From Rhodocyclaceae bacterium (GTDB taxonomy: Bacteria > Pseudomonadota > Gammaproteobacteria > Burkholderiales > Rhodocyclaceae), in the NCBI GenBank assembly GCA_008080565.1, contig VIKE01000001.1:1-64000 (forward strand): a stretch of 64,000 nucleotides of DNA, written 5' to 3'. Positions 11,768 through 59,638 of the stretch are shown in pieces. Every line of letters begins with the position of its first letter. Position 1 is the stretch's first letter. Position numbers and translations under genes: made by a program. A model generated the notes under the pieces. That model ran no database searches and was not told the DNA's origin. It worked only from the letters and a program-made list of their open reading frames with translations.

Positions 11768-11833
11768 GAAATGTGACCAAAAAGGACGCATTTCGGCCGC
11801 ACGGTGAGGTTGGCCGAATTTACGATTTACCCC
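11768..11833 (+). promoter_or_regulatory. Transfer-regulon 27-bp palindrome (copy A) with -10
   Basis: Arms GAAATGTGACC (11768-11778) and GGACGCATTTC (11784-11794) surround AAAAA. A -10-like TACGAT starts at 11821, 27 nt after the last palindrome base, the same distance as in the five other copies. Predicted transcription would start near 11833, next to an ATG at 11834 that opens a nine-codon ORF. The transcript would reach the mobI-like gene after about 257 nt. Confidence 0.7.
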
Positions 11834-12089
11834 ATGAATCCTTATTGCAGAGGGCATCAATAGACGTCTGACCTATGGATGAAACATTTCGCCCCTGCCG
11901 TGGCGAGAAGCGGTGAAACCTTTCAGATTTGGACGTTGCGCCAGTTCTTCCCTAGTGTCGTCGTGTGTTCGTTGCCGCTCTCGGTGGGGAAGAGCCCGGC
12001 TCGTCGTTGGGCCCAGTCGGTTGGAGAGTTGCTCAGAAGGATTCAGTAGATGGCGAATCCTGATCTTTAAGAGGTGGTACGAACTACGT

Positions 12090-12575
12090 ATGGAACATTG
12101 GATTATGGAAGTCAGATCGCTGCTTCAGGGGCAGCTGAAAGAGGTATTCGAGAATGCCAAGGATCTCGGAAACCGCTACCTGCAGGAAGTTATGGATGCG
12201 AACAAGAGCAAGGACTGGAATCAGAAGAACACGCTCCAGTTCAGAGTTCGACAGCGCGGCAATGCAATCGCCCTTGAATGGTATGCCGTCAGTTGGTATG
12301 GCAAAAAAGACAAGGATCGCAAACTCCGTCGGAAGTACATCCAGAAGCGAAACAAGAGCCGGCGGCGGGATGCGCAGATTTTTTCCTACAGCATGAGTGA
12401 TCTTCATCGACACACTTCGGGCTGGGATGACGATCTGGTGACGGAGGTAGAGACCGAGGCTAGTCAGTATCGCCGTCAGGCTCATTACATTTCTGACATG
12501 CTTGTTACTCTGGGCCGATTGGAACGGTTTGCGACCGGCATCACGGAGCCGACTACAGCCGAGGAGGCCCAATGA
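12090..12575 (+). CDS. mobI: MobI-like auxiliary mobilisation protein
   Basis: A 161-residue basic protein. The N-terminal helical part is followed by LQFRVRQRGNAIALEWYAVSWYG (shown as LQFRVRQRGN and ALEWYAVSWYG) and a run of Lys/Arg. That layout and size match MobI of SXT and IncA/C elements, which is needed for transfer together with a MobH relaxase and is encoded beside oriT. I start at ATG 12090; an internal ATG at 12105 is possible. It overlaps the next gene by ATGA and lies downstream of palindrome copy A. The family call is from memory of general features, so moderate. Confidence 0.5.
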   Translation: MEHWIMEVRSLLQGQLKEVFENAKDLGNRYLQEVMDANKSKDWNQKNTLQFRVRQRGNAIALEWYAVSWYGKKDKDRKLRRKYIQKRNKSRRRDAQIFSYSMSDLHRHTSGWDDDLVTEVETEASQYRRQAHYISDMLVTLGRLERFATGITEPTTAEEAQ

Positions 12576-12862
12576 ACAAAGCGCCTCGCTATTTGCTGAC
12601 CGATCAGTTCGACCTCGGAATGCTTTCTTCACTGACCGCAGATATCACGCTGACTGAAATTTCCTTGGCTGATGTTTGCCAACTTATCGAGCAGGCAGAG
12701 TGCGACAAGAAACTCGGTCTTCATGGCGGGTGGGCAGACGCAGTCAAGAACAAGACGGTAGTCAGTCTTCAACCCGACGGTCCCATTCTCATCGTTGCTC
12801 GACCTGTTCAAACAGATGAGGGGGTTCTCATGAAATGGGTGCAAGTCGAAGTTGTAGATTGA
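12572..12862 (+). CDS. Hypothetical protein coupled to mobI
   Basis: A 96-residue acidic protein whose ATG overlaps the mobI-like stop (ATGA), so the two are translationally coupled. I do not recognise a family. The first half looks helical (ITLTEISLADVCQLIEQAE), and the second half contains alternating hydrophobic residues (PILIVARPV, MKWVQVEVV) typical of a small alpha/beta fold. No signal peptide or membrane segment is visible. Position suggests a role in DNA processing or its control. Confidence 0.65.
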   Translation: MNKAPRYLLTDQFDLGMLSSLTADITLTEISLADVCQLIEQAECDKKLGLHGGWADAVKNKTVVSLQPDGPILIVARPVQTDEGVLMKWVQVEVVD

Positions 12863-12868
12863 TTTTCA

Positions 12869-12907
12869 GGCTCGCCTGGTGAGCTACTGGTCAGCTAAAC
12901 TGTCGGC
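12869..12907 (+). promoter_or_regulatory. WYL-regulon box (copy a) and promoter of the SNase operon
   Basis: GGCTCGCCTGGTGAGCT at 12869-12885 is a one-mismatch variant of the 17-bp palindrome seen three more times. A -10-like TAAACT starts at 12896, 11 nt after the box, as in all other copies. The box occupies the place of a -35 element. Predicted transcription would start at about 12908, exactly at the ATG of the nuclease gene. Confidence 0.7.
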
Positions 12908-13453
12908 ATGCAAAATAGATCGAATCGCTCGTTGATCACTGTCGGCCGTTGGCTCGTCGTTATGGTCGTTGCGGCACTACTTCCGCTAGGTGCCTCTGCA
13001 GCTACGGGTAGTGTCACTGGAAAAGTGATTCATATCGTCGATGGCGATACCTTTGACGTACTTGATGCTGCCCATGTGACGCATCGGATTCGTGTTTCCT
13101 GCATGGATACACCCGAGAAGGGCCAGGCTTTCTACCGTCGCGCCAAGGATGCCTTGGCAGACCTGATCTCGGGACAGATGGTCATGGTCGAGTACTACAA
13201 GGACGATCGGTACCGCCGCCATATTGGCGAGGTCAATGGTCTCGATCTCTGCATGAAAATGATTGAATCTGGCATGGCTTGGCACAATCGGCCCTATGAG
13301 AGGGAGTTGAAGCCGGGTAGAGCAGATGAGCTTGCCGCAGCAGAGATATCGGCCAAGGCCAACCGGGCTGGGTTGTGGGCCGACCCCGATCCGTTGGCAC
13401 CTTGGCTATTGCGCAGGCAGCAGCGTGAAGGCAAACATCAGAGCCGCCCCTAG
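12908..13453 (+). CDS. Exported SNase-type thermonuclease
   Basis: A 181-residue staphylococcal-nuclease-fold protein. Residues 1-32 form a signal peptide (basic start, VVMVVAALLPLGASA, cleavage near ASA-ATG). The nuclease domain has VIHIVDGDTFDVLD (metal-binding Asp), HRIRVSCMDTPEKGQ (general-base Glu), and a DDRYRRHIGEV segment that supplies the second catalytic Arg. Such enzymes cut single- and double-stranded DNA and RNA, here probably in the periplasm. First gene behind WYL box a. It may degrade DNA entering through the envelope or recycle nucleotides. Confidence 0.82.
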   Translation: MQNRSNRSLITVGRWLVVMVVAALLPLGASAATGSVTGKVIHIVDGDTFDVLDAAHVTHRIRVSCMDTPEKGQAFYRRAKDALADLISGQMVMVEYYKDDRYRRHIGEVNGLDLCMKMIESGMAWHNRPYERELKPGRADELAAAEISAKANRAGLWADPDPLAPWLLRRQQREGKHQSRP

Positions 13454-13468
13454 AAGAGACCTTATTTC

Positions 13469-13987: not shown

Positions 13988-14018
13988 TTTGCCCGCCAGC
14001 CAACAGGAGATCCCCATC

Positions 14019-14306: not shown

Positions 14307-14341
14307 TAGCTGCCGAATTCTCAGGCAATTACTGGTTGAGT

Positions 14342-14380: not shown

Positions 14381-14409
14381 TACAGAAACAAAATAACAGG
14401 GAAATACCC

Positions 14410-31266: not shown

Positions 31267-31332
31267 GAAACGTAACCTAAAAGTACGCATTTCAACCGCC
31301 GAAAGGATGTAGCCGCTGATAAAAGTTCTGGC
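31267..31332 (+). promoter_or_regulatory. Transfer-regulon 27-bp palindrome (copy B) with -10
   Basis: Arms GAAACGTAACC (31267-31277) and GTACGCATTTC (31283-31293) surround TAAAA. A -10-like TAAAAG starts at 31320, 27 nt after the palindrome. An ATG at 31333 follows 13 nt after the hexamer start and opens the repA leader ORF. This is the most diverged left arm of the six copies. Confidence 0.62.
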
Positions 31333-31422
31333 ATGTATACCAGCGCCACGAGCTCCATTTTTCTACTCCGATCCCGACGAGCCCCAGTTTGCCCGTATGA
31401 ACGCGGAGGAGCTTGGTTTTGA
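31333..31422 (+). CDS. Putative repA leader peptide
   Basis: A 29-codon ORF starting with ATG 31333, exactly where a leaderless transcript from copy B would begin. Its stop (TGA at 31420) overlaps the TTG at 31419 that I take as the repA start, giving a TTGA junction. AGGAG at 31406-31410 lies inside this ORF at good distance from that TTG. Leader peptides coupled to the initiator gene are known from IncFII-type plasmids (tap-repA). The peptide has no recognisable family; the claim rests on geometry alone. Confidence 0.4.
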   Translation: MYTSATSSIFLLRSRRAPVCPYERGGAWF

Positions 31423-32306
31423 ATGGCTTGTCGCGTGCCGGCAAGCTGATTGCACTCGCTTCCGAAATCAACGATGTCGAGGTCGATGCTGGATCGCTCG
31501 CCTTCATGGGTCAAGCACTTGTCCAGACAACATTGCCCCATAGCGATCCCGGGGTGCCATTCTTCGAACGGACGAACGGCGCCGTGTCACTGTCGATCAT
31601 CGCAAATCCCAGAATTGGTCTGCCGTTCGGCACCGTTCCAAGACTTCTCCTGGCATGGATATGCACGGAAGCCGTCAAAACCAAGTCGCCTATGCTTGGC
31701 CTCGGGAAAAGTCAAAACGAGTTCCTGCGCAAGCTCGGGATGAGAACTGACGGCCGCGATTGCCAGCGGCTTCGTGCCCAGTCTCTGAAGCTCTTCTCTT
31801 CAATGCTGTCCATTACCTATCAAAGTCATGGGCGGTTTGGGCTGAAAAACATGCCTATTGCCGATGAGGCATTTGTACTGTGGGATCCCCACCGGCCTGA
31901 TGACCGGATGCTGTGGGAAAGCACGCTCAAGCTGTCGAGCGAATTCTTTCGGAACGTGACGGAGTCGCCAGTGCCGATCGACATGCGTGTGTTGCACGCA
32001 CTCTCCAAGTCGCCCTTGGCGATGGATGTCTATTCCTGGCTGGTCTACCGGATATTTCTCCTGCGGGTCACCAACCGTCCGAGCGTCCTCATACCATGGA
32101 AGTCATTGAAGCTTCAGTTCGGTGCTGATTACAGCGATACGCCCCGCGGGCTGCTGGACTTCAAAAAGCGATTTCTCCAGAGACTCAAGGAGGCGTTGCT
32201 CTTCTATCCCGAGGCCAATGTTTCAGCGCAGGACACGGGGCTTCTTGTGGTTGCCAGCCGATTGCGTATCCGCCATACAGGTGGCGCACGGCTTTCTTCG
32301 TTGTAG
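31419..32306 (+). CDS. repA: Plasmid replication initiator RepA
   Basis: A 295-residue plasmid RepA (RepA_C-type). The core PFGTVPRLLLAWICTEAVKT, LGKSQNEFLRKLGM and FKKRFLQRLKEALLFYPEA segments match initiators of theta-replicating plasmids of Pseudomonadota. It binds iterons and recruits the host replisome; suitable repeats lie directly downstream at 32459-32601. Start is uncertain: TTG 31419 has AGGAG 8 nt upstream, TTG 31413 is too close to it. A weak start coupled to a leader ORF would keep initiator levels low. Its presence argues for autonomous replication of the element. Confidence 0.83.
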   Translation: MNGLSRAGKLIALASEINDVEVDAGSLAFMGQALVQTTLPHSDPGVPFFERTNGAVSLSIIANPRIGLPFGTVPRLLLAWICTEAVKTKSPMLGLGKSQNEFLRKLGMRTDGRDCQRLRAQSLKLFSSMLSITYQSHGRFGLKNMPIADEAFVLWDPHRPDDRMLWESTLKLSSEFFRNVTESPVPIDMRVLHALSKSPLAMDVYSWLVYRIFLLRVTNRPSVLIPWKSLKLQFGADYSDTPRGLLDFKKRFLQRLKEALLFYPEANVSAQDTGLLVVASRLRIRHTGGARLSSL

Positions 32307-32356
32307 CGCTGCCCGATCAACCCGGTCTCGCCTGGAAAAGACACGCGCGAATATCC

Positions 32357-32381
32357 ACAAGTAAATCGGCCCTTTACTTGT
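32357..32381. repeat. Inverted repeat after repA
   Basis: Arms ACAAGTAAA (32357-32365) and TTTACTTGT (32373-32381) around TCGGCCC. It lies 51 bp after the repA stop. There is no T-run behind it, so it is either a weak terminator or part of the origin region. Confidence 0.5.
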
Positions 32382-32458
32382 AAAGCTACATGCAAAATTA
32401 CCTGCACTACTTGGGGAAGGCCTGGATGCCTTGCCAATCAAGGCTTGCGGCGTGGTCC

Positions 32459-32601
32459 ATGAGGCAGATTTCACGTGATCATGAGACAGATTTCACATGC
32501 CCTTGAGACCGTTTTCACGTGGATAACTTTGCGCTTTCCGTGAAATGTACTGCCGGTCAGTGATTGCGAGAAATCGTCGTTGAGACAGTTATCACGTGGA
32601 T
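32459..32601 (+). repeat. Iteron-like 22-bp repeats of the replication origin
   Basis: Three tandem, directly abutting 22-bp repeats start at 32459, 32481 and 32503, sharing TGAG(A/G)C(A/C)GNTTTCAC(G/A)TG. A fourth starts at 32580 (TTGAGACAGTTATCACGTGG). An inverted, weaker copy may lie at about 32538-32556. Location just behind repA is typical of an iteron-controlled oriV. The region continues with DnaA boxes. Confidence 0.72.
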
Positions 32602-32632
32602 AACTCGGCTCAAGAATCGCTTCTGTGGATAA
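32518..32632 (-). other. DnaA boxes of oriV
   Basis: On the reverse strand there is a perfect DnaA box TTATCCACA at 32624-32632 and two one-mismatch boxes TTATCCACG at 32518-32526 and 32595-32603. Two of them overlap the ends of iteron-like repeats. Together with repA this marks the probable vegetative origin. Confidence 0.7.
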
Positions 32633-32640: not shown

Positions 32641-32706
32641 GAAATGTGACCTGCCAAGGCGGATTTCGAGAGTTGCATATTTTCAGGAATCCGTAAGATG
32701 AGTTGG
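32641..32706 (+). promoter_or_regulatory. Transfer-regulon 27-bp palindrome (copy F) with -10
   Basis: Arms GAAATGTGACC (32641-32651) and AGGCGGATTTC (32657-32667) surround TGCCA. A -10-like TAAGAT starts at 32694, 27 nt after the palindrome. Unlike the other copies, no long ORF starts at the predicted transcription start; the first convincing gene begins at 32892, so the transcript would have a leader of about 185 nt. It heads the traD operon. Confidence 0.68.
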
Positions 32707-33308: not shown

Positions 33309-33598
33309 CGCGGATCAGCATCGAGCGTGCCCATCGTGTTTGGCTGGAAACTCAGGTGATCGACCACGGACCGAGGAGCGGCGCGAAATTCCGTTTCAAG
33401 GTCATCGAGCGGCTGTTTGTCGAGGACGAGTTCGATGCAGAAGACAGACTCCGCGGGAAGAAATCAGTCGCCTTTCCAGTCTTGTTGATCGAGTACAACA
33501 ATGAGTCCGACTTTGCCAAACGGTCAATTACCCACTTCCAGAGAGCTCACAGGAAGGGGTGCAGCCATCTTTCCTGGCCATCATCGAGCATCGGGTGA
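33299..33598 (+). CDS. Hypothetical protein upstream of traD
   Basis: A 99-residue soluble protein, overlapping the membrane-protein gene by 10 bp and the traD start by one base (TGATG). The N-terminal half (VWLETQVIDHGPRSGAKFRF) is basic, the middle acidic (FVEDEFDAEDRL). No family recognised. The tight coupling implies that it is made together with the coupling protein. Confidence 0.6.
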   Translation: MALTRISIERAHRVWLETQVIDHGPRSGAKFRFKVIERLFVEDEFDAEDRLRGKKSVAFPVLLIEYNNESDFAKRSITHFQRAHRKGCSHLSWPSSSIG

Positions 33599-35415
33599 TG
33601 GCTGTATCTTCACCCTACGATTTTGAGGTCCCATGGCGCCCGAATTTCGAGGCGAAGATGGCGATGATCTGGGCCGTAGGGTCGTCGCTCATTATCCTGG
33701 TTTCCCTTGCCGTCCCAATGTTTTCCCAGTTTGCCGCCTTGCTTGCCATTGGGTGTGCGTTGGCAGCGGCCTACCGCGGATACCAGGCCTACAAAAGGCT
33801 GGTTGATGCCTCCCGTCTCAAGTTGTTCGGGAAAGAGTTCATCGATTTGGCCGAACTCGAGAGGAAAGCTGGTCTGTCAGCCAAGCAAAAGGCCTTCTGG
33901 CTTGGGAAGGGGTTTCCCTGGACAGACATCGAGGCGACCAAGCTTCATACCCTGATTTCGCTTGGTGTTGTCAGAACCATTGGCAAAGCTGCGCAGCATA
34001 CGGAAGGCGCTTACTGGATTCATGGCCTTGCCCCCGAAAGTGACTTGTATTCTGAACTCTCCCATCTGGTTGGACACACGCTGATCGTCGGCACGACCCG
34101 CGTCGGGAAAACGCGCTTGTTCGACTTGCTCATCGCTCAGGCGATCTTCCGTGGTGAGACGGTCATCATCATCGACCCGAAGGGGGATCATGGGCTCGCC
34201 CAAAATGCCCGCGCAGCTTGTGAAGCCAGCGGGGCAGGGGATCGGTTCGTCTACTTTCATCCGGCCCATCCCGATCGATCCGCCTGCATTGATCCGTTAC
34301 GCAACTGGAACCGGAAGACCGAGCTTGCCAGTCGCGTAGCGGCATTGATCCCCTCAGAAACCGGGGCGGATCCTTTCACGGCCTTTGGATGGAAAGTGCT
34401 CAACGACATTACGAACGGAATGATCGCCACGGGTCATCGGCCCAATCTGGTCCAGCTTCGACGGTATGTGGAAGGTGGTCCCGAAAGCCTTCTTCAGCGT
34501 GCCTTAAAAGTCCATTTCTCGGCTCATGTAAAGGACTGGGAAAGTCGGGCAGCCTCCTACATCAAGCGCTACAAGGACCGTCTGCTGGAGGCTTACATCA
34601 CCTTCTATCAGGAAATCGCTATCCACGAGGCGCAGTCGGTTGATCTTGACGGCCTGATTTCGACCTACGAGCACAACCGTGATCACTTTCAGAAGATGGT
34701 GGCTTCCTTGATCCCGATTCTTTCGATGCTGACCAGTGACCCGCTGCAGGAACTCCTGTCGCCAGATTTTGAGCCGGGTCACGAGAGGCTGGTAACCGAC
34801 ATGTCGAAAATCATTCGTGGCAACAAGGTGGTCTACATCGGCCTGGATTCCCTTGCCGATTCAACTGTAGGTAGCGCCATCGGATCCATCATGCTCGCCG
34901 ATCTTGCTGCCGTTGCGGGAGACCGCTACAACTACGGCATTGACTCGCTGACGCCCGTCAATCTGTTTATCGACGAAGCCGCCGAGGTGCTTAACCAGCC
35001 CGCTATCCAGCTCATGAACAAGGGGGGTGGTGCTGATTTCCGGGTCACTATCGCTACGCAGACCTTCGCCGATTTTGCCAGCCGACTCGGGGACGAAAAC
35101 AAGGCGCGGCAGGTTCTTGCCAACACCAACAACAAGATCGCCTTGCGCGTACTGGATTCCGAGACCCAGAAGTACATCGCGGAAGGGATGCCCGAAATCA
35201 AGGTTCGCTCAATGGCACTGAGGTATGGGCATAACGTCGATACCCACATTCACGACGAATACACCGCATCCTACCAAGAACAGATTCTGGAAGAGGATGC
35301 GGAGCTGTTCCCCGCTGCAATGCTGGGCGAGCTCCCCCCTCTCCATTTCATCGCGCGTCTGTCAGGCGGGCGGACACTGAAAGGCCGTATTCCCATCCTG
35401 CTGACGGAGCAATAA
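33598..35415 (+). CDS. traD: Type IV coupling protein TraD
   Basis: A 605-residue VirD4/TraD-family ATPase that brings the relaxase-DNA complex to the mating channel. Two membrane segments lie at about 21-62. Walker A is GTTRVGKT at 165-172, followed directly by TVIIIDPKGDHG near 190. Walker B-like NLFIDEAAEVLNQP is near 455-468, followed by ATQTFADFA. The form with KGDHG and GGGADF resembles TraD of SXT/R391-type elements. The ATG 33598 overlaps the previous stop; the DUF4400 gene starts with a single-base overlap at its end. Confidence 0.9.
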   Translation: MAVSSPYDFEVPWRPNFEAKMAMIWAVGSSLIILVSLAVPMFSQFAALLAIGCALAAAYRGYQAYKRLVDASRLKLFGKEFIDLAELERKAGLSAKQKAFWLGKGFPWTDIEATKLHTLISLGVVRTIGKAAQHTEGAYWIHGLAPESDLYSELSHLVGHTLIVGTTRVGKTRLFDLLIAQAIFRGETVIIIDPKGDHGLAQNARAACEASGAGDRFVYFHPAHPDRSACIDPLRNWNRKTELASRVAALIPSETGADPFTAFGWKVLNDITNGMIATGHRPNLVQLRRYVEGGPESLLQRALKVHFSAHVKDWESRAASYIKRYKDRLLEAYITFYQEIAIHEAQSVDLDGLISTYEHNRDHFQKMVASLIPILSMLTSDPLQELLSPDFEPGHERLVTDMSKIIRGNKVVYIGLDSLADSTVGSAIGSIMLADLAAVAGDRYNYGIDSLTPVNLFIDEAAEVLNQPAIQLMNKGGGADFRVTIATQTFADFASRLGDENKARQVLANTNNKIALRVLDSETQKYIAEGMPEIKVRSMALRYGHNVDTHIHDEYTASYQEQILEEDAELFPAAMLGELPPLHFIARLSGGRTLKGRIPILLTEQ

Positions 35416-37357: not shown

Positions 37358-37423
37358 GAAATCCGTCCTTAAAGGTCACATTTCGGCGACGCAGCATTGG
37401 TCTGACTTCCTACCATGGCAGTC
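37358..37423 (+). promoter_or_regulatory. Transfer-regulon 27-bp palindrome (copy C) with -10
   Basis: Arms GAAATCCGTCC (37358-37368) and GGTCACATTTC (37374-37384) surround TTAAA. A -10-like TACCAT starts at 37411, 27 nt after the palindrome. Predicted transcription would begin at about 37423, next to ATG 37424. It heads the main pilus-assembly operon (slt to traG). Confidence 0.7.
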
Positions 37424-37843
37424 ATGACTCGTACCCTGTTTGCTGTCCTCTTATTGCCAATGGCATTCTCATGCCAGGCTACCTGCTTTGAACAAGCAGG
37501 TAGCCGATATGGCATTGCTCCGACCCTGCTCAAGGCTATCTCGGCGGTCGAGTCGGGCTTCGATCCTGTGGCACGCAATCGCAACCGCGATGGCTCGGAA
37601 GACCTGGGGCACATGCAAGTCAACAGCCGCTGGTTGGGCGCGCTGTCGTCCTATGGCATAGGCCGGGAACAGCTATTAGACCCCTGCATCAACACCTATA
37701 TCGGCGCCTGGATCCTCGCGCAAAACATCAGTCGTCTCGGGTACGGCTGGGATGCGATTGGAGCCTATAACGCCCGCTCACCGGAAAAGCGCGCGGCCTA
37801 TGCCCGCCGGATCGCCGCGAAGGTCAAGGCATGGCGATCCTGA
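37424..37843 (+). CDS. Lytic transglycosylase of the transfer apparatus
   Basis: A 139-residue SLT-type peptidoglycan hydrolase. A signal peptide (TLFAVLLLPMAFSCQA) precedes CFEQAGSRYGI, then the catalytic SAVESGFDP, GHMQVNSRW, and YIGAWILAQ segments. It opens local gaps in the wall for pilus passage, like VirB1 or F orf169. I prefer ATG 37424 because it lies at the predicted transcription start; ATG 37415 would overlap the -10 hexamer. No ribosome site is visible, which fits a leaderless message. Its end overlaps the OmpA-like gene. Confidence 0.82.
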   Translation: MTRTLFAVLLLPMAFSCQATCFEQAGSRYGIAPTLLKAISAVESGFDPVARNRNRDGSEDLGHMQVNSRWLGALSSYGIGREQLLDPCINTYIGAWILAQNISRLGYGWDAIGAYNARSPEKRAAYARRIAAKVKAWRS

Positions 37844-51282: not shown

Positions 51283-51603
51283 ATGATGTCGCGCATGGAC
51301 AAACATCAAGGCACATCGTTGGCAGCTGATCGCGGCTTTGATGACGCGGAAGATCTGTCGGCGAAGGCGATCCTCGCGGTCAAGCTAAACGATCTGATCG
51401 ACAAGCGTTGCCTTAGCCAAAACGAGGTCGCAGACATCACCGGTATGACACAGCCCAAGGTGTCGCAGGTGCGCCGCCACAAGCTCCAGAACATCTCGCT
51501 CGAACGCCTGATGCAGGCACTGGTGTCGCTTGATCAGCATGTGGAAATCATAGTGCGGCCGGCCCGCCGTGCGCACACCGCTGGCATTACGGTCGCCGTG
51601 TGA
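51283..51603 (+). CDS. XRE-type HTH regulator, antitoxin-like
   Basis: A 106-residue protein with a Cro/C1-type helix-turn-helix (LIDKRCLSQNEVADITGMTQPKVSQVRR, written as LIDKRCLSQNEVADITG then MTQPKVSQVRR), followed by LERLMQALVSLDQHVEII, as in HigA-like antitoxins. No toxin ORF lies immediately upstream, so it is probably a stand-alone regulator of the three genes behind it. A perfect palindrome 15 bp upstream is its likely operator. Confidence 0.75.
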   Translation: MMSRMDKHQGTSLAADRGFDDAEDLSAKAILAVKLNDLIDKRCLSQNEVADITGMTQPKVSQVRRHKLQNISLERLMQALVSLDQHVEIIVRPARRAHTAGITVAV

Positions 51604-51637
51604 TGTGCTGGAAACAGATAATCGGTTCGGGGGCGCG

Positions 51638-52594
51638 ATGAAGTTCGCCTATGAAGACTTGAGCGACGGTCAGTTCGAGAACTTGATTGTCTTCTTGTGC
51701 CAGCCCCTGCTCGGTTTCTCCGTGCAGGGTTTTGCCAAAGGGCCTGACGGCGGACGCGATGCGAAGTTCGTGGGAACCGCAGAGCTGCATCCAAGCAAGG
51801 CTGCTCCTTGGGTCGGTACGACCATCATTCAAGCCAAACACACTAACGGTTACAACCGCAATTTTTCTGAGGCTGACTTCTTCAGCACGACGGCATCGAA
51901 CACGGTGCTCGGAAAGGAGATCCCGCGCATCAAGAAATTGCGTGAGAACAAGCAGCTCGACCACTACATGCTTTTTGCAAACAGGCGCTTGGCCGGCAAC
52001 GCCGAAAGCGATATACGCGAGTACATCGCGGCGCAGTGTGGTATTCCCGCGTCGTCAATTTACTTATGCGGCTTGGAACAGTTAGAAGTTTGGCTGAAGA
52101 CGTTCCCGGACGTTGCGGCGAAGGCCGACCTAGATCCGGTCGATTCACCTTTAATCGTCAGTCCCGACGATCTTGCCGAGGTCGTGCAGGCGCTGGCGCG
52201 ACAGAAGGATGGTGTGTCAGCTCTGCTCGATGATCCTCCGACTTTGCGCGTGACGTATGAGAAGAAGAACGCGCTCAACAACATGAGTGCGGAGTACGCC
52301 AAGGCGCAGCGCAAGAAATACCTAAAGGAGACCGTTCAGATTCGGGGGTTCCTGGCCGCGCCGGAAAATTTGGAACTGCTGCGCATGTATGAATCGGTGG
52401 TCGATGAGTTTCAGCTCAAGATCATCGCTAAGCGCAAGGACTACCAGACCTTCGACGACGTGATGGAGTACCTGGTGGACCTGCTGTTCAGCCGTGACCC
52501 CGTCTTACGGCAGCATGCGCACAAGCGTTTGACTCGCGCCGTACTGTTCTACATGTACTGGAACTGCGATATCGGGGAGGTGGGCGATGCTTAG
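51638..52594 (+). CDS. ABC three-component system effector with Mrr-like nuclease core
   Basis: A 318-residue protein. Near the N-terminus GPDGGRDAKF (Asp 41) and TTIIQAKHT (Gln 65, Lys 67) give a D...Q-x-K core like Mrr-type restriction nucleases. The middle reads FANRRLAGNAESDIREYIA, and a helical C-terminal domain (from about 215) probably contacts the partner proteins. ABC-3C systems described computationally combine such an effector with a small middle component and a DUF2326-type ABC ATPase; all three are here, overlapping. ATG 51638 is chosen for its GGGGGC ribosome site. Function as anti-phage or plasmid-conflict system is inferred. Confidence 0.72.
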   Translation: MKFAYEDLSDGQFENLIVFLCQPLLGFSVQGFAKGPDGGRDAKFVGTAELHPSKAAPWVGTTIIQAKHTNGYNRNFSEADFFSTTASNTVLGKEIPRIKKLRENKQLDHYMLFANRRLAGNAESDIREYIAAQCGIPASSIYLCGLEQLEVWLKTFPDVAAKADLDPVDSPLIVSPDDLAEVVQALARQKDGVSALLDDPPTLRVTYEKKNALNNMSAEYAKAQRKKYLKETVQIRGFLAAPENLELLRMYESVVDEFQLKIIAKRKDYQTFDDVMEYLVDLLFSRDPVLRQHAHKRLTRAVLFYMYWNCDIGEVGDA

Positions 52595-52835
52595 ACCGAC
52601 TAAGCACTCGCATCCGGATCGCACGGTGATCAACGTATCGCTTCTGCTGTTGGCGCGCCTCAAGACGCGCCGCGTGGATGACTACGATGTCTTGCGCAAG
52701 TATGCGAAGAAGTCCGTCATCGGCGGTGACGTGCTGTTTCTTCCGGCACTAAATTTTCTTTATCTGATGGGACTGATCGACTACCGCCCCAAAACCGACG
52801 CTGTGGAATACGTGGGGCCCAATGAAGCTGTCTAG
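52587..52835 (+). CDS. ABC three-component system middle component
   Basis: An 82-residue protein overlapping both neighbours. It opens MLRPTKHSHPDRTVINVSLLLLARL, written as MLRPTKHSHPDRTV then INVSLLLLARL, the typical start of the small ABC-3C middle components (MC6-type), with a winged-helix-like rest (DVLRKYAKKS, FLYLMGLIDYRPKT). It presumably bridges the nuclease and the ATPase. Confidence 0.75.
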   Translation: MLRPTKHSHPDRTVINVSLLLLARLKTRRVDDYDVLRKYAKKSVIGGDVLFLPALNFLYLMGLIDYRPKTDAVEYVGPNEAV

Positions 52836-54615
52836 ACTCTATTCGAACAAGCCTGACCTGTTTGAGCCCATGGAGTTTGTCCATGGTTTGAATGTCGTCA
52901 TGGCAGAAATCCGCCTGCCAGAGAACCGTAACAAGGACACGCACAACCTCGGTAAGACCACGCTAGGGCGCCTACTTGACTTCGGTTTCTTGGCAAAACG
53001 CGACGCCAAATTTTTTCTATTCAAGCATCTCGACATCTTTAAGGACTTCGTCTTTTTTCTCGAAATAGAATTGCAGGATGCCTCGTTCGTGACGGTGCGA
53101 CGTGGCGTGGAGGATGCGACTAAGATTAGCTTCAAGAAGCATGAGGCTAGGCATCAGGACTTGTCGGCGCTGCCAATGGCTGAATGGGACCATCAAGACG
53201 TGCCGTTTGATCGCGCTCGCGACCTATTGGATGGGCTGCTCGATTGGCGTACGATCAAGCCTTGGTCGTTCCGAAAGGGCTTGGGCTATCTCCTACGCTC
53301 GCAAGATGATTTCCGAGACGTTTTCCATCTGCGCAAGTTTGCATCCGCGCATGCCGACTGGAAGCCGTTCCTTGCGCACGTGCTGGGCTTCGATGCGCAA
53401 CTGATCGCGCAGCACTACGAGAAGGAAGATGCACTCACGCTGAAGCAGGCGACCACGCAGACCATCAAGAACGAGTTGGGTGGATCCATTGAGGACATTA
53501 GTAAGATCGAAGGCATTTTGTTGCTCAAGCAGAAGGATGCCGAGAGGAAACAGAAGCTGCTCGACGCATTCGATTTCCGCGCCCAAGACAAGGACCGGAC
53601 CAAGCAGTTGGTCGATGATATCGACGAGCGCATCGCGGCGCTTAATGCCGAGCGCTACTCGCTCAATCAGAATAAGAAGAAGATCTTCGCGGCGCTAGAA
53701 GAAGACCAGATACTGTTTGATCCGGATGATGCACAGCGATTGTTCGAGGAAGCGGGCGTTCTCTTCAAGGGGCAGATCAAGAAGGACTTCCAGCAGTTGA
53801 TCGCCTTCAACAGGGCGATCACAGACGAGCGTCGCGGCTACCTGCAGGAAGAGCGCCAAGAGGTCGAGTCGGAATTGAAACGCGTAAATGCGGAGCTGAA
53901 CGCGTTGGGCAAGAAGCGATCAGACACTCTGTCATTTCTGAGCGGCACAGACGTTTTCGGGAAGTACAAGCAAGTTTCCGATGATATGGTGACGCTACGC
54001 GCCGACATCACGTCGCTGGAGCGCCAGCGTGGTTTCCTACATCGACTTCAGGAGTTGCGCACCGATATCCGGGCACTGACCGAAGAGCGCGGCCATCTGC
54101 AGACCCAGATCGAAGTCGATGTAGAGAAACAGAACTCGGATAAGAACAGCCTGTTCTCGGCGATTCGACTGTTCTTCAGCGAGATTGTCGAAGAAGTGAT
54201 CAACCGCAAGGCCTTGCTGAGTGTGTCTCCTAATCAAGCAGGTCATATTGAGTTCAAGGCGGAAATTCTGGACGAGTCAGGCAACGCCACCAGCGCTGAC
54301 CTCGGCCATACATATCGCAAGCTGTTGTGCGTTGCCTTCGATATGGCAGTGCTGCGTGCGCACGTTGACGACAGATTTCCGCGCTTCGTCTATCACGATG
54401 GCGTGTTTGAGTCGCTGGATGATCGAAAGAAAGAAAACCTGTTGGGGGTCATTCGCCGATACGCGGAACTCGGGTTGCAGCCCATCATTACCCTGATCGA
54501 TTCGGACCTGCCTGTTCGGACCGATGACGAACAGGTGTTCACCGAGGATGAAATCGTCTTGATCCTGCATGACGAGAATGAGCGGGGGCGCTTATTCAAG
54601 ATGAGGGCATGGTAA
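52822..54615 (+). CDS. DUF2326-type ABC/SMC-like ATPase
   Basis: A 597-residue SMC/Rad50-like ATPase. Walker A region NLGKTTLGRLLDF near 37-50 (a divergent loop ending GKTT), a long coiled coil from about 205 to 450, then SADLGHTYRKLLCVAFDMAV and Walker B-like RFVYHDGVFESLDDRKK near 520. DUF2326 proteins are the ATPase arm of ABC three-component systems. They may sense DNA structures and switch on the nuclease. No trace of transfer function, so this operon is cargo inside the tra region. Confidence 0.78.
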   Translation: MKLSRLYSNKPDLFEPMEFVHGLNVVMAEIRLPENRNKDTHNLGKTTLGRLLDFGFLAKRDAKFFLFKHLDIFKDFVFFLEIELQDASFVTVRRGVEDATKISFKKHEARHQDLSALPMAEWDHQDVPFDRARDLLDGLLDWRTIKPWSFRKGLGYLLRSQDDFRDVFHLRKFASAHADWKPFLAHVLGFDAQLIAQHYEKEDALTLKQATTQTIKNELGGSIEDISKIEGILLLKQKDAERKQKLLDAFDFRAQDKDRTKQLVDDIDERIAALNAERYSLNQNKKKIFAALEEDQILFDPDDAQRLFEEAGVLFKGQIKKDFQQLIAFNRAITDERRGYLQEERQEVESELKRVNAELNALGKKRSDTLSFLSGTDVFGKYKQVSDDMVTLRADITSLERQRGFLHRLQELRTDIRALTEERGHLQTQIEVDVEKQNSDKNSLFSAIRLFFSEIVEEVINRKALLSVSPNQAGHIEFKAEILDESGNATSADLGHTYRKLLCVAFDMAVLRAHVDDRFPRFVYHDGVFESLDDRKKENLLGVIRRYAELGLQPIITLIDSDLPVRTDDEQVFTEDEIVLILHDENERGRLFKMRAW

Positions 54616-55331: not shown

Positions 55332-55396
55332 GAAATGTGTCTTTGCCGGGCGCATTTCGAGAATTGCTCGGCAGGTCGCGCCGATACAGTGGCACC
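55332..55396 (+). promoter_or_regulatory. Transfer-regulon 27-bp palindrome (copy E) with -10
   Basis: Arms GAAATGTGTCT (55332-55342) and GGGCGCATTTC (55348-55358) surround TTGCC. A -10-like TACAGT starts at 55385, 27 nt after the palindrome, and ATG 55397 follows 12 nt after the hexamer start. It heads the signal-peptidase/traI operon. Confidence 0.7.
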
Positions 55397-55879
55397 ATGC
55401 ATATTCGTCTTTTCAATCTGTCTGGGCGCTGGTTTCCGGTTGTCCTTTGGGTCATGGCAGCCAATTTGGCATTTGGCCGCGCTTATCTCGTCGCCCTGAA
55501 TCTCACCGAAAGTCTTCCTGGCACCATTTTTCTTGTCGAGAAAGGCGTCACGCCAGCACGCGGAGAGTTGGTTGCCTTCCGATGGGAAGCAAACTGGCCT
55601 TATCCCCACGGAAGCATCTTCGTCAAAAAATTGATCGGACTGCCCGGTTCAGTCGTTACGGCGAATGGCCGAGACTTTTTCGTAGACGGCAATTCAGTCG
55701 GCCGTGCGAAGGAAAGAGCCCGAACCGGAGAGCCACTGGATATTGGCCTCATCGGCACAATTCCGGAAGGGCACTACTACGTTGCCGGATCTCATCCCGA
55801 CAGCCTCGATTCACGATACCGGCTTACCGGCTGGGTTGGTCGGAATCAAATCATCGGGAAAGCGCATCGGATTTTCTGA
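55397..55879 (+). CDS. TraF-type S26 signal peptidase (pilin processing)
   Basis: A 160-residue S26C peptidase related to RP4 TraF. One membrane segment (WFPVVLWVMAANLAFG), the serine motif TESLPGTIF (Ser 39), and the lysine motif FVKKLIGLPGS (Lys 77 or 78), with GHYYVAGSHPDSLDSRY as the third box. It probably removes the propilin leader or matures another tra protein. No ribosome site precedes ATG 55397, which coincides with the predicted transcription start. The name traF is avoided because the element has a different F-type traF. Confidence 0.82.
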   Translation: MHIRLFNLSGRWFPVVLWVMAANLAFGRAYLVALNLTESLPGTIFLVEKGVTPARGELVAFRWEANWPYPHGSIFVKKLIGLPGSVVTANGRDFFVDGNSVGRAKERARTGEPLDIGLIGTIPEGHYYVAGSHPDSLDSRYRLTGWVGRNQIIGKAHRIF

Positions 55880-56225: not shown

Positions 56226-58259
56226 TTGCTAAGTTTCATCAGGAAGGCAGTCCGCTTTGATAGTCAAAGTCAGGAGCTTGTCGGCAAACCCGCTGAGAAT
56301 GACGCTGCGCAAATGGCAATCGACGAGGAGATTCCTCGGTACCCGCCGTTTATGAGGGGTCTGCCGGCCACGGACCCACACAAACTTATCGAGACTCAGC
56401 GGGAGTTGATTGGTCAGATTCGCGAGGCCGGACTCGCTTCTCCCGATATATTCGAGCAGTACTACCTGGAGTCTCTCCGTCGATTTGCCTCCTACGCGCA
56501 TCTCTTGCCGGCAAGCCAAACTCATCACCACAGGGGGGCAGGCGGGTTGCTTCGTCATGCTGCCGAGGTCGCCCTGTGGTCGCTTCAATCTGGGGATCGA
56601 GTGCTACTGCCTGGAGAGCAGGCGCCCCGGAGACGACGTGAGCTAGAACCACGGTGGCACCTTGCCGTGTTTCTAGCGGCACTTTGCCACGATGTGGGTA
56701 AGCCGGTGACAGATCTTGTCGTTACTAGCAGAGATGGAGCGAAAGTCTGGAACCCATTCGTGGAAGATCTTTATTCCTGGGCCAGCAGGCACGGCGTAGA
56801 TCGGTACTTCCTGCATTGGCGTGAGAATCGTGCGAAAAAGCATACGGCAATTTCTTCTCTGATTGCTGAGCGCATCATCAGTCCAAAGGGGCTTGCTTGG
56901 ATTGCGGAGGGAGACACAGAGCTCGTACTCTGGATGATGGAAACAATTAACGGACACCCCAGTGCTGAGAATCTGATACACGATCTCGTGATCCGCTCAG
57001 ACCAGGTCAGTGTCGAACGAGACCTGCGAAATCTTGGCGTTGCGTTTACCGGCTATGAGATCGGTCTTCCGGTGGAACGGTTCCTAGTGGACATCATGCG
57101 CAGACTTGTCCGGGATGGAACCTGGGGAATCAATGAACCTGGCTCACGCCTCTGGCTCATTGACGGGCATCTCTTTTTAATCTGGCCTGCGGCAGGCGAA
57201 GAAATGGCGGCTATCATCAATCAGGAAAAAATTCCGGGCTTGCCACGAACCCCGAACAGCATTCTGGACATGCTCGTTGATCGGAAGCTGGCGAATATTC
57301 GCGGGGATCGGACTGACGGGAATCGCTACTGGGTGATTGCCCCCGATGTGCTAGCCGAGAAGATACCCAATATCCGACTGACTGCCATCAGGTTGCGTGA
57401 TACTGCTCTGGTCATCGATCCAGCCCCATTATCAGTCCCAGGAAAAATTCTCGACCTGGAGGAAATTCCCAAAGAGATGCCACGTATCTCTACTCCAAAA
57501 TTGCCTGTCGATGCAGAGCCCGCAGTGTCACCAGCGCTCATTAGGGCGCCGGTTCAATCCGAAAAGGTGAATGCCAAGCCACCGGAAGAAGTTGTCGATC
57601 GGCTCGACGGACCTGTCGGCGAAGCACTGAAGGCACTTGCCGAAGACATTCAAACCGGCGAAAAATCATTCGAGACATTGACTCACATCGACTCCTCCGG
57701 TGTGCTGTGCCTCAAGTGGCCAGACGCGCTTAATGGCTATGGGTTGGAGAACAAATCGATTCTCGATGAACTGTCGCGCCGAAACTGGCTGGTTCTTGAT
57801 CCATTGTCGCCGTTTCGCAAGGTGGTGGAGATCGAGATCGACGGTGGCAAGACGTGGAAGGTTGTTCGGCTTCAGCCGGTGGTGAAACAGCTCATGGCGG
57901 TCGGGAAAACGCCGCCAGAACCATCAACCGTATCGATATCATCCGCTGATCCTGTTCAGCTACCCAAGCCAGTTCAGGGCGAGATTGAGGGAATAGGCGA
58001 AGACACGCGACTTGCATTGATACAAAGTATCGTCACCACCTTGCGGGAAGGGGTGAGAGAAGGCATCCTAACGGCAGATGCGGATGGAGCCTTCGTCTGG
58101 ATCCAATCTAGGAAAGCCGAGCCTTTCTTGGTGGCGCGACTCCAGGTAAATCGAATGTCAATAATGCGTTTGGGCAGCGTCGTTCCTGACGTGTTTATGT
58201 GCCAGACGCGAAAAAAGGCACATTCCTATCGAATACCGGCTATGCCGTCAGTAGGGTAA
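56226..58259 (+). CDS. traI: MobH-family relaxase TraI
   Basis: A 677-residue TraI_2 (MobH) relaxase. The HD-like catalytic domain shows THHHRGAGGLLRHA at about 99-112 and LAALCHDVGKPVTD at about 150-164, followed by KHTAISSLIAERI. The C-terminal TraI_2_C domain (SVVPDVFMCQT region) closes the protein after a proline-rich linker near 430-460. MobH relaxases initiate transfer in SXT/R391, IncA/C and IncHI elements and work with MobI in some of them. The start is TTG 56226 with GGAGGG upstream. Confidence 0.88.
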   Translation: MLSFIRKAVRFDSQSQELVGKPAENDAAQMAIDEEIPRYPPFMRGLPATDPHKLIETQRELIGQIREAGLASPDIFEQYYLESLRRFASYAHLLPASQTHHHRGAGGLLRHAAEVALWSLQSGDRVLLPGEQAPRRRRELEPRWHLAVFLAALCHDVGKPVTDLVVTSRDGAKVWNPFVEDLYSWASRHGVDRYFLHWRENRAKKHTAISSLIAERIISPKGLAWIAEGDTELVLWMMETINGHPSAENLIHDLVIRSDQVSVERDLRNLGVAFTGYEIGLPVERFLVDIMRRLVRDGTWGINEPGSRLWLIDGHLFLIWPAAGEEMAAIINQEKIPGLPRTPNSILDMLVDRKLANIRGDRTDGNRYWVIAPDVLAEKIPNIRLTAIRLRDTALVIDPAPLSVPGKILDLEEIPKEMPRISTPKLPVDAEPAVSPALIRAPVQSEKVNAKPPEEVVDRLDGPVGEALKALAEDIQTGEKSFETLTHIDSSGVLCLKWPDALNGYGLENKSILDELSRRNWLVLDPLSPFRKVVEIEIDGGKTWKVVRLQPVVKQLMAVGKTPPEPSTVSISSADPVQLPKPVQGEIEGIGEDTRLALIQSIVTTLREGVREGILTADADGAFVWIQSRKAEPFLVARLQVNRMSIMRLGSVVPDVFMCQTRKKAHSYRIPAMPSVG

Positions 58260-58271
58260 ATTATTCAGAGA

Positions 58272-59144
58272 ATGCACACGCTCCAGCGAACAGAAGTTGA
58301 TCGCTTTCTTGCCAGCGGCCACTACGACAACGGCTTTGAGACTTGGCCAGGCGATACGTTCGTGGAGCGTGCGACGTGCGGAAGTGCTGCACTGCGTTGC
58401 GCACTCATTTCAGAGGTACTGCAGCGGACCGGGTGTGCAGCCGTCCCCGCATTCCTCGAAAATGCCGACTTGAAGGTGTTCGCCCACGCGAAACTTGCGC
58501 CCATGGTGCAAGGGCTGTTCCCGCAGCGAGAACGCATGATCATCCTCGAAAGGCTTGAGCGGTCTATTGTCTTTCTCACGCCGGCGACGATAGCAAGTAC
58601 TCTCGAAAAAACGCCGTGGCTCAAGACAGCGTGGAATCTGGCAAATCTTTACCTCACAAGCTTTGATGCAAAACGGCTCTCCGTCGATGCGCCAAATATT
58701 GTTGGCCTGAGCGAAGAGACGACCTGCTACGTTTCCGTCGAGTATTTTGATGCCAACAACCGCTTCGACGATTATGTGGTTCACGAGGCTGCCCACATTT
58801 TTCACAACTGCAAGCGAGAAACGCTCGGGCTGAACGCGACTCGTCATCGGGAGTGGCTGCTCGAGATTGATTTCGCCAAACGAGAAACGTTTGCCTATGC
58901 CTGCGAGGCTTACAGCCGAATTCTTGAGCTTGGCAAAACTCGTTCAACTCGAAACCGGCTTCTGTCAGAGCTTGCGGACGGGGCGATGCCGCCGGACGAG
59001 CGGGTACATGGTGCCGAGTATGTGGATATTCTGCGGGAGGCGGTTGCCGCCGGGAACGGCTGGAAATCCATCCGCGAGCGATGCTCTCCCTCCAGGTCAC
59101 CCCGCGGCGAACAAGCGACCGAGAGTCGATCTACCCCGACTTAG
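58272..59144 (+). CDS. HEXXH zinc metallopeptidase-like protein
   Basis: A 290-residue protein with VVHEAAHIFHNCKRETLG (HEAAH near 171-175) and a later acidic helix RETFAYACEAYSRIL that could provide a third zinc ligand, together a zincin-like fold. The N-terminal 160 residues are unassigned. It follows traI after 12 nt and is likely cotranscribed with it. Similar ORFs occur beside relaxase genes of integrative elements, but a function is not established. It is the second short zincin in the window. Confidence 0.6.
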   Translation: MHTLQRTEVDRFLASGHYDNGFETWPGDTFVERATCGSAALRCALISEVLQRTGCAAVPAFLENADLKVFAHAKLAPMVQGLFPQRERMIILERLERSIVFLTPATIASTLEKTPWLKTAWNLANLYLTSFDAKRLSVDAPNIVGLSEETTCYVSVEYFDANNRFDDYVVHEAAHIFHNCKRETLGLNATRHREWLLEIDFAKRETFAYACEAYSRILELGKTRSTRNRLLSELADGAMPPDERVHGAEYVDILREAVAAGNGWKSIRERCSPSRSPRGEQATESRSTPT

Positions 59145-59482
59145 CCCCAGAAAATTCCTGTCTGATCGGCATCCAGGGCCGCAAGCAGAGTGTCGAGGTC
59201 ACGAGACGGCTTTGCTTGGTGATATCGATGCCACTTCGAGTTTCTGTCCGAGCAGAAAAGACCCCAGCTGCCATTATCTTCATACCGAAATTGAGCGATA
59301 GGAACGGTCACCCACGTCCCCGGCTGTGAAAACGCAATACGTTCTTCATTGAGCGTCACGCTGTTTCCGCGAATGACGTAACTCAACCTCACCTGATCCC
59401 GTGCATGGTGCGGAATTCTCTTCTCGCAGTAAGCTCCGAGTTTGATTTCAACCAACCGTTTGGTCAGTACTGGCAACGCCAC
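59141..59482 (-). CDS. DUF3024 protein
   Basis: A 113-residue DUF3024 protein, recognisable by YCEKRIPHHARDQVRLSYVI, PIAQFRYEDNGSW and the ending DADQTGIFWG. The family is of unknown function and is often found on mobile elements. It faces the transfer genes and overlaps the end of the zincin gene by 4 bp. It seems to be independent of the palindrome-controlled operons. Confidence 0.8.
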   Translation of the reverse strand: MALPVLTKRLVEIKLGAYCEKRIPHHARDQVRLSYVIRGNSVTLNEERIAFSQPGTWVTVPIAQFRYEDNGSWGLFCSDRNSKWHRYHQAKPSRDLDTLLAALDADQTGIFWG

Positions 59483-59571
59483 CGATTGCTCCCTCCAAGG
59501 TCAGATGCGATGCTACCGCAGCATGTCCTGATTATTGAAGACGCATTGAAGCTGATGTGACTTGCGGTGCC

Positions 59572-59638
59572 GAAATGCGCCCGAAAAAGGCGCATTTCAA
59601 AAGCCATCGTCGCGACCGTGCGACCAGAATCGATCCTC
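59572..59638 (+). promoter_or_regulatory. Transfer-regulon 27-bp palindrome (copy D) with -10
   Basis: The most symmetric copy: perfect arms GAAATGCGCC (59572-59581) and GGCGCATTTC (59589-59598). A -10-like CAGAAT starts at 59625, 27 nt after the palindrome; ATG 59639 follows 14 nt after the hexamer start. It heads the traW-traU-trbC-traN operon. Confidence 0.72.

Follow-up and report, generated by a model that had tools for sequence, protein, structure and literature searches.

The transfer programmes of integrative and conjugative elements (ICEs) of the SXT/R391 family and of IncA/C plasmids are controlled by activators of the FlhDC family, SetCD and AcaCD respectively. At the xis promoter of SGI1, AcaCD produces a footprint of about 40 bp, located 31 bp upstream of the start, around GCCCTAAAAGGGC, and activation does not require a -35 element (PMC4605294). 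Where SetCD or AcaCD serve divergent promoters, a separate motif is described for each direction (PMC4344509, PMC4207636). A 2015 review of both families pointed to additional FlhCD-like regulators, whose motifs are probably unrelated, and saw knowledge of these motifs as a help in finding new mobilizable islands (PMC4542580). Here we analyse a 64,000-nucleotide stretch of a Rhodocyclaceae draft genome (hereafter the window: bases 1-64000 of contig C99, of 147,504 bases, in a genome of 5.2 Mb and 152 contigs), in which a 27-bp palindrome recurs at a fixed distance before promoters of transfer and mobilization genes. This palindrome is very probably the operator of an FlhD/FlhC-like activator that is encoded on another contig of the same ICE and would work like SetCD and AcaCD.

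Palindromic sites and promoter geometry

All six palindromes that an earlier note on this DNA had described are present at the positions it gave (Table 1). Scanning both strands of the window with up to 3 mismatches yielded 11 strand-wise matches in exactly six places, where 0.07 were expected from shuffled sequences and none of 100 shuffles reached 11; the symmetrical form of the pattern was observed 6 times against 0.05 expected. The absence of additional sites in the window was confirmed at the same threshold, and a weak matrix match at 26693 falls within a reading frame and is not followed by a -10 in the + direction. The least palindromic of the six is the site at 31267, with 3 mismatches. 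The statement that all sites are on the + strand holds for the six operons it named, and fails for the - strand at 11768, where the palindrome also faces parM with a TAGCAT hexamer at the same offset.

Each of the six -10-like hexamers begins at the 27th base past its palindrome, as had been claimed, which corresponds to a spacing of exactly 26 nt at every site. Using weights that approximate published frequencies, we computed the mean -10 score of the six sites over 80 offsets, offset 27 being the sole positive one (4.22, with the runner-up at -1.34), a value reached in none of 2000 base shuffles. At this offset the mean score is 3.98 for ten promoters, including those found later, and 2.99 for all twelve, including the two weakest (alpA and the exonuclease gene), while the non-gene flanks of six one-sided sites score -4.57 and show no -10. 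The proposed lack of a -35 element is borne out by a best resemblance to TTGACA of just 2-4 of 6 letters across ten promoters. Hence a common motif at a fixed distance precedes tra, mob and excision promoters without a -35, and its centre near -52, as proposed previously, agrees with the class II activation reported for AcaCD and SetCD (PMC4605294, PMC4344509).

Inverted repeats, one of which adjoins a predicted origin of replication, might also be terminators, dispersed repeats or origin elements without a regulatory role. We consider this hardly credible, given that no T-run was found 3' of the palindromes at the six window sites, that their position relative to the -10 and to the genes is fixed across genomes, and that their letters vary between element groups while the layout is kept.

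Conservation in related elements

A TraC search of genome contigs yielded 23 loci, 13 of them from Rhodocyclaceae, Accumulibacter or Sulfuritalea, the others including Rhodocyclales, Sideroxydans and Methyloprofundus. Their TraC proteins form groups with 82-100% and 71-73% identity to that of the window, and one Methyloprofundus locus has 45%. The relative genomes and bins are labelled G369-G384 (G373, labelled Anaerolineaceae, is probably misbinned). Judged from the record titles, their hosts are betaproteobacteria, Accumulibacter and Sulfuritalea among them, in part from groundwater.

Random scattering of the sites among relatives, which the earlier note had named as a finding that would refute it, was not observed: 68 of 75 sites lie within 420 bp of an element gene, on its transcribed side. 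This count covers the fetched stretches of this genome, G370, G371, G372, G373, G380, G381, G382 and G384 at up to 3 mismatches; left out were L166, which repeats a counted site, L173, which holds one more site without a gene, and G369, identical to the window where compared. Offset 27 gives a mean -10 score of 2.83 over the 82 gene-side flanks of the nine genomes and of -4.23 over the 68 flanks on the opposite side; no other offset exceeds -2.77 on the gene side. The hexamers are gene-specific and conserved at mobI, slt and traW (Table 1), and the two-sided palindrome between parM and mobI is also found in G373, G381, G371, G380 and G382. In the sequences of seven relatives around slt, the -10 is invariant (100%) and the palindrome 91.7% identical; identity falls to 63.2% for the linker and to 41.7% for the 40-nt 5' flank.

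An FlhDC-like pair, a repressor and AcaB

The activator gene that had been postulated, and not seen in the window, has a strong candidate in an FlhDC-like pair on C126, another contig of the same element. The FlhC-family gene is the single match to PF05280 in the draft genome (C126:21311-21757), over the curated cut-off, and a two-row profile of FlhC matched FlhC chains in the PDB, the best at 1.1e-8. Its partner is identified with less strength: the FlhD-like protein matches Pfam FlhD at 2.1e-4, below the cut-off, and a nine-row profile matches a PDB FlhD chain at 0.0025 next to an unrelated nuclease at 0.019. An FlhD-like gene is located just upstream of FlhC in 17 of 17 loci examined, these being 14 of the 25 FlhC matches in relatives, this genome and two plasmids, with one locus cut by a contig end and with 10 weak FlhC matches and one partial left out. 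Among the 16 genomes searched, 13 have an FlhC match at 1e-5, that of G379 being its only one and weak (8e-8), and none appeared in the results for G369 (whose TraC is identical to that of the window), G370 and G383. Scanning 369 genomes of the class at E 1e-12 found FlhC in 2, one of which is this genome, so that such FlhCs are rare in that sample. Together with the conservation of the sites, the presence of flhDC on the same element supports the earlier suggestion of a SetCD/AcaCD-like activator.

Divergent from flhDC lies a SetR-like repressor gene with HTH_3 and Peptidase_S24 domains, which suggests SOS induction of the ICE; SetR has the same domains and length (PMC4542580). Considering that palindromes suit dimeric repressors and that such a gene is present, they could be operators of this repressor, silencing all operons until SOS induction. 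This is very improbable, since the sites lie 26 nt upstream of the -10 rather than over it, there is no -35, and the interval from the repressor gene to flhD, the expected location of a SetR-type operator, holds no site.

The main rival for the operator is the AcaB-like protein, which has no Pfam family at E 0.01: AcaB rather than FlhDC would bind the palindrome, and FlhDC would act at other sites. Its gene is on the element with a site at its own promoter, and no operator site was found at the flhDC promoter of this element, so that AcaB is a candidate binder. However, in IncC plasmids AcaB activates acaDC and the acaB promoter is AcaCD-inducible (PMC9927553, PMC11493245), and here the palindrome is at the acaB promoter and not before flhD. 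In addition, geometry and core resemble AcaCD sites (PMC4605294), and, in a comparison that covered FlhC, the type of site goes with the type of this protein. Binding by AcaB therefore appears unlikely, although somewhat less so than binding by the repressor, and the FlhDC-like pair is the preferred activator.

The element and its predicted regulon

The contig C110 carries guaA, an integrase gene and later an AlpA-like gene, and stops inside ssb; C126 starts within the same ssb, with an exact overlap of 59 bases between both contigs. The sequence GAGTGGGARTAA is present in single copy on C110 (5957) and on C99 (69793), on the same strand, as GAGTGGGAATAA at the end of guaA and as GAGTGGGAGTAA on C99, each the only copy on its contig. 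Because of the integrase, the C110/C126 overlap and these matching single-copy ends, we conclude that the window belongs to an ICE in guaA, spread over C110, C126 and C99 and about 133 kb long if C126 adjoins C99. Sequence at the end of C126 resembles that at the start of C99 (CTAGCAGGCTGTTGAAA and a similar stretch in reverse complement), and the assembly may break at this point on account of a repeat, for instance an insertion sequence. In G381 a single contig (C7) holds, in order, a relative of the integrase, the alpA-side site, acaB/ssb, toprim, flhC, parM/mobI, repA, the traD-operon site and slt. A single integrated unit contains the integrase, relaxase, coupling protein and type IV secretion system; in this genome it extends over three contigs, the junction of C126 with C99 being presumed. 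The guaA gene at the integration site (C110:4455-5970) is split into frames in the draft, owing to an assembly error or a real change.

With up to 3 mismatches allowed, the pattern occurs at 10 places in the genome, all on C99, C110 and C126. These are the six window sites plus C99:68388, C110:32146, C126:16850 and C126:2212, and nine of the ten precede element genes. A weaker eleventh site faces the excisionase-like gene alpA (PF05930, 2.8e-13) and has counterparts before alpA in G381, G371 and G380; a matrix scan of C143 gave no operator site. At C110:32146 and at 11768 one palindrome each faces a divergent pair, acaB/ssb and parM/mobI, and since a -10 lies at the same offset on both sides, one palindrome would serve both directions. 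The two-sided use, the targets in excision, partition and recombination as well as acaB, and the arrangement of leader, repA and origin go beyond the earlier note; the list of targets matches AcaCD/SetCD biology (PMC4542580, PMC11493245).

Table 1. Positions of the palindromes, promoters, genes and predicted origin in the window, and of related features on other parts of the element (contig given).
Feature	Position	Strand	Remark
Palindrome (putative operator) between parM (-) and mobI (+)	11768..11794	.	-10 at equal offset on both sides
-10-like hexamer TACGAT, mobI promoter	11821..11826	+	TACGAT in 5/5 counted mobI-side sites
-10-like hexamer TAGCAT, parM promoter	11736..11741	-	TAGCAT or TAGGAT in 7/7 counted parM-side sites
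ParM/actin-like partition gene, start codon unsettled	10617..11684	-	Pfam ALP_N 1.3e-33
mobI, start codon unsettled	11913..12575	+	Pfam MobI 6.1e-29
Palindrome (putative operator) before leader ORF and repA	31267..31293	+	Operator-like site at repA in 9/9 relatives with repA
-10-like hexamer TAAAAG, repA leader	31320..31325	+	Fixed offset
Predicted 29-codon leader open reading frame (ORF), begins at predicted transcription start	31333..31422	+	TGA overlaps TTG of repA frame (31419)
repA, likely start TTG 31419	31413..32306	+	Pfam RepA_C 1.3e-22
Predicted oriV	32351..32632	+	Four 22-nt direct repeats and four DnaA-box-like sites
oriV 22-nt direct repeats	32458-32479, 32480-32501, 32502-32523, 32579-32600		
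Palindrome (putative operator), traD operon	32641..32667	+	Edge of predicted oriV
-10-like hexamer TAAGAT, traD operon	32694..32699	+	Fixed offset
traD coupling protein	33559..35415	+	NCBIfam SXT_TraD 4.3e-184
Palindrome (putative operator), slt-tra operon	37358..37384	+	Conserved across seven relatives' sequences
-10-like hexamer TACCAT, 7 nt 5' of ATG 37424	37411..37416	+	Identical in seven compared sequences (7/7)
slt lytic transglycosylase, predicted nearly leaderless start	37424..37843	+	Pfam SLT 2.4e-20 (frame from 37415)
Palindrome (putative operator), peptidase-mobH operon	55332..55358	+	
-10-like hexamer TACAGT, peptidase-mobH operon	55385..55390	+	Fixed offset
S26 signal peptidase, predicted leaderless start	55397..55879	+	Pfam Peptidase_S26 3.5e-20
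mobH (TraI_2) relaxase	56226..58259	+	NCBIfam MobH 6.4e-116
Palindrome (putative operator), traW operon	59572..59598	+	Hexamer CAGAAT in 8 and CAAAAT in 1 of 9 traW sites
-10-like hexamer CAGAAT, traW operon	59625..59630	+	Fixed offset
traW, predicted start 2 nt past predicted transcription start	59639..60262	+	NCBIfam TraW 1.1e-65
FlhD-like gene, 100 aa	C126:21007-21309		Directly upstream of and overlapping flhC
FlhC-family gene	C126:21287-21778		Pfam PF05280 6.7e-12, above curated cut-off
SetR-like repressor, HTH_3 and Peptidase_S24, 215 aa	C126:20278-20925	-	Divergent from flhDC
AcaB-like gene	C110:31430-32134		Relative of pSTJ2 AcaB, 55%
Site before exonuclease gene	C99:68388		-10 one base off
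Site between acaB and ssb	C110:32146		-10 at equal offset on both sides
Site before toprim gene	C126:16850		
Site inside recT	C126:2212		Without -10
Weaker site facing alpA	C110:29237	-	PF05930 in AlpA

repA, its leader and a predicted origin

Relatives of RepA were found in 9 of 16 genomes or records searched, all nine having a TraC of the window type, and none in the six Sulfuritalea-type genomes or in the plasmid pSTJ2 of Sulfuricystis multivorans. Each of the nine has an operator-like counterpart of the operator claimed before repA; it lies some 200 bp ahead of the repA match, with best matrix scores of 20.7-34.6. In this region G369 does not differ from the window, and G380 resembles G381. 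As background, 400 stretches of 600 bp were taken at random from element contigs, which themselves contain real sites; 22 reach 20.7 and the median is -2.8, and for this reason the lowest scores (G372, G380 and G381) rest also on position and -10. The leader ORF was compared in 8 relatives, with G380 omitted because it duplicates G381. In 7 of them it begins with an ATG 7 nt past the hexamer, has 28-29 codons in a frame other than that of repA, and ends in a TGA that shares bases with a repA-frame start codon (as ATGA, GTGA or TTGA; TTGA at 31419-31422 in the window). G372 is the exception, its leader ATG being in the repA frame. Downstream, 32351-32632 is a predicted plasmid-type origin inside an ICE, with the last of its four DnaA-box-like sites 8 bases before the traD-operon palindrome. 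This arrangement is consistent with the anatomy of a leader-repA-oriV replicon under the activator, by which the element may replicate.

The main rival for this coupling is that the sites drive the transfer genes and the one at repA is a side effect, repA being expressed otherwise and replication being uncoupled from transfer. In IncA/C plasmids repA is reported to be independent of AcaCD (PMC4542580, PMC4207636), and the repA sites are weak (matrix 20.7-25.6) in G372, G380, G381, G384, G382 and G373, with a shifted or poor -10 in four relatives. On the other hand, the site is kept in all nine relatives, the leader spacing and the overlap of its TGA with the repA start recur in 7 of 8, and SGI1 has a leader-repA operon driven by its helper's AcaCD (PMC7826253). 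We therefore regard uncoupled replication as rather doubtful, albeit clearly less so than a different binder of the operator, and favour repA under the FlhDC-like activator.

A layout shared by related elements

The plasmid pSTJ2 has an FlhC-family and an AcaB-family gene. With the window-type matrix no window-type site was found on it (best score 12.3), whereas its slt, peptidase, acaB, parM and traW promoters show, by eye, GAAA-N19-TTTC or nearly so, followed by 26 nt and a -10. When at least 11 of 12 letters were required, the full pattern of GAAA-N19-TTTC, 26 nt and TANNAT had 11 matches in the window's element, 5 in pSTJ2, 2 in a Delftia plasmid (40 kb), 3 in a Simplicispira plasmid (40 kb) and 5 in a Sulfuritalea bin (80 kb), where a Markov model expects 0.05-0.5. 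Other gap lengths gave 0-4 matches in the window's element and 0-2 in the other stretches. Two of the five Sulfuritalea matches face slt and peptidase; of the three in Simplicispira only one, before acaB, is upstream of an annotated gene, the other two lying inside annotated genes. The IncA plasmid pRA1 gave 0 matches at 11 of 12 letters, compared with 1.0 expected.

In the FlhC tree, seven sequences of the window type and nine of the pSTJ2/Sulfuritalea type fall on two sides of one branch (support 90/100, present in 100% of 200 bootstrap trees), although support is weak for many inner branches and AcaC, being too distant, cannot be placed. Members of its own group are 60-85% identical to the window's FlhC, those of the second group 41-45%. 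The operator type of the second group was read in pSTJ2 and G374-G377, six of the nine, which excludes G378 and the second FlhC of G371 and G382. Related betaproteobacterial elements thus seem to keep the layout with other core letters. The bins G371 and G382 each contain FlhC genes of both types, which makes them a natural setting for probing operator insulation. In pSTJ2 the flhD-like gene (L029:46678-46950) and flhC (L030:2524-2979) are about 5.6 kb apart. The gap includes genes annotated as RAMP CRISPR protein and helicase and, ahead of flhC, a repeat, which gives the impression of a CRISPR locus inserted between the two genes.

Further observations on the window and its relatives

Transcription is predicted to start 12 nt downstream of the first base of each hexamer, at 31332 (repA leader), 37423 (slt), 55397 (peptidase) and 59637 (traW), and the start codons of these four follow within 0-2 nt, a spacing that recurs for slt in relatives and, by eye, for slt, peptidase and traW in pSTJ2. 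The corresponding mRNAs are predicted to be leaderless or nearly so. Between traG and the peptidase operon, window positions 51334-54497 are 75.8% identical in DNA to a segment of a Citrobacter freundii plasmid annotated as an ABC-three-component system with a DUF2326 protein.

The Accumulibacter regalis bin G372 has two copies of the slt, traW, peptidase, acaB/ssb and repA operator-gene pairs, and therefore probably two related elements. In G382, contig C558 carries two palindromes 105 bases apart (3623 and 3755), with -10s pointing away from each other. They precede genes with weak HTH_17 or PrtN matches, next to an H-NS-like gene, which are perhaps further regulators of the element. We do not claim this contig as a hijacking island: it also encodes a protein resembling, by eye, the HipA at the right end of the window's element, and may simply be the end of that element. 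A scan of viral contigs with the exact operator pattern yielded 0 stretches.

Proposed mechanism and its weighing

In the mechanism that we propose, relief of the SetR-like S24-peptidase repressor divergent from flhDC would allow FlhDC to be produced and to bind the palindromes centred near -52. Given that the promoters have no -35, FlhDC would recruit RNA polymerase to the fixed -10 by class II activation. Switched on together would be alpA (excision), ssb and the recT region (recombination), toprim (DNA metabolism), parM (partition), mobI and mobH (mobilization), the traD, slt-tra and traW operons (coupling, pore and pilus) and repA with its origin, so that the excised circle could replicate during transfer. 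The site at acaB suggests an AcaCD-to-AcaB feedback as in IncC plasmids, a loop that might act as an amplifier.

Several results weigh against this reading. Of the 9 relatives whose TraC is of the window type, two metagenome bins, G369 and G370, gave no FlhC match. Besides the missing operator at the flhDC promoter of this element, pSTJ2 has one weak match of the general layout before its flhD, and the genome-wide Pfam FlhD search did not list the FlhD-like gene and returned one sub-threshold place elsewhere (C69, E 0.145). Seven of the 75 sites have no listed gene, including the one inside recT, which lacks a -10 and is regarded as chance; two of the seven, on G382:C558, have good -10s and face HTH-like genes. 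In this genome the -10 before the exonuclease gene is one base off, and the alpA site has more than 3 mismatches. Among relatives, a -10 that is poor or displaced by one or two bases occurs at repA in G370, G373, G372 and G384, and likewise at the traD-operon site in G371, G372 and G384 and at the peptidase and alpA sites of the Accumulibacter genomes G372 and G384. Regarding the element, no overlap was found between the contig ends at the C126-C99 junction; with respect to the layout count, a gap of 23 in the Delftia stretch gives 2 matches, equal to the gap of 26.

The broadest proposal, on which we find the balance even, is that of a self-transmissible ICE turning plasmid on command: one FlhDC-like activator, acting through a near-symmetrical two-sided operator, would start excision, iteron-type replication, partition, recombination and conjugation at once, and each betaproteobacterial element group would share the layout with its own operator dialect, from which mutual insulation is expected. 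Among the matches listed in a literature search, judged by title and start of abstract and with most subscription literature outside its scope, no paper dealt with this operator or with FlhDC-like ICEs of this group. The class of activator is known; what appears new is the operator and its use in two directions, a repA site within a self-transmissible ICE and the layout common to the elements. A motif of the kind that the 2015 review called for can now be read from sequence, with its geometry in several related elements and a named regulon. This opens testable questions on plasmid replication of ICEs during transfer, on one FlhDC-type site driving two divergent promoters, and on the joint change of operator and FlhC specificity.

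Comparison with known systems

The closest resemblance is to the AcaCD regulon of IncA/C plasmids and SGI1, with an FlhDC-family activator, ParM-like, acaB and tra targets, and no need for a -35. In pRA1, the upstream regions of 5 of 27 hand-listed genes contain GCCC-N5-GGGC (traL, traN, traF, parM and one small gene), and by eye traN, traF and parM have 34 nt from the core to a -10-like hexamer, the other two showing no clear hexamer. The inner core of the window sites, GNCC-N5-GGNC, imperfect in several of them, lies 33 nt before the -10, that is, within 1 nt of the distance at 3 of the 5 pRA1 promoters. Given this AcaCD-like core and spacing, the operator can be seen as an AcaCD-type core extended into a near-symmetrical 27-mer. 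It differs in its length and GAAA/TTTC arms, which the window sites carry and which set them apart from an AcaCD-type operator without arms, in its near symmetry and in the use of one site for two divergent promoters; the element, in turn, differs in its repA site, guaA integration and betaproteobacterial hosts. The window's FlhC is no close homologue of AcaC, with only 31% identity over 45 aa to that of pRA1.

With SetCD and SXT/R391 the element shares the ICE lifestyle, a SetR-like repressor (HTH_3, Peptidase_S24 and 215 aa in both), an FlhDC-like pair, excision and tra targets and the class II position, as well as an SXT-type TraD, a MobH relaxase and MobI. In contrast, the SetCD site is 19 bp long and is described as drastically unlike AcaCD and FlhDC sites (PMC4344509), SXT integrates in prfC rather than at the guaA 3' end, and a plasmid-type repA-oriV is not among the features described for SXT/R391 in the accounts consulted. 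The S004-repA operon of SGI1 is similar in its FlhDC-family-driven leader ORF overlapping repA and in plasmid-like replication after excision (PMC7826253). However, SGI1 is mobilizable and described as needing an IncC helper, while the window's element carries its own activator and transfer genes, and SGI1 RepA is described as IncN2-related (PMC7826253), that of the window being RepA_C.

BisDC of ICEclc is likewise an FlhC-like ICE activator, found in Beta- and Gammaproteobacteria; it differs in that BisC was assigned by DUF2857 and Phyre2, that BisD has a ParB domain, and that the cited account, as far as it was available, describes no operator (PMC7423338). The elements of pSTJ2, Sulfuritalea, Delftia and Simplicispira share with the window's element the FlhDC-like pair and the layout of GAAA-N19-TTTC, 26 nt and TANNAT, the pSTJ2/Sulfuritalea type differing in its core letters and in having no RepA relative in the records named above.

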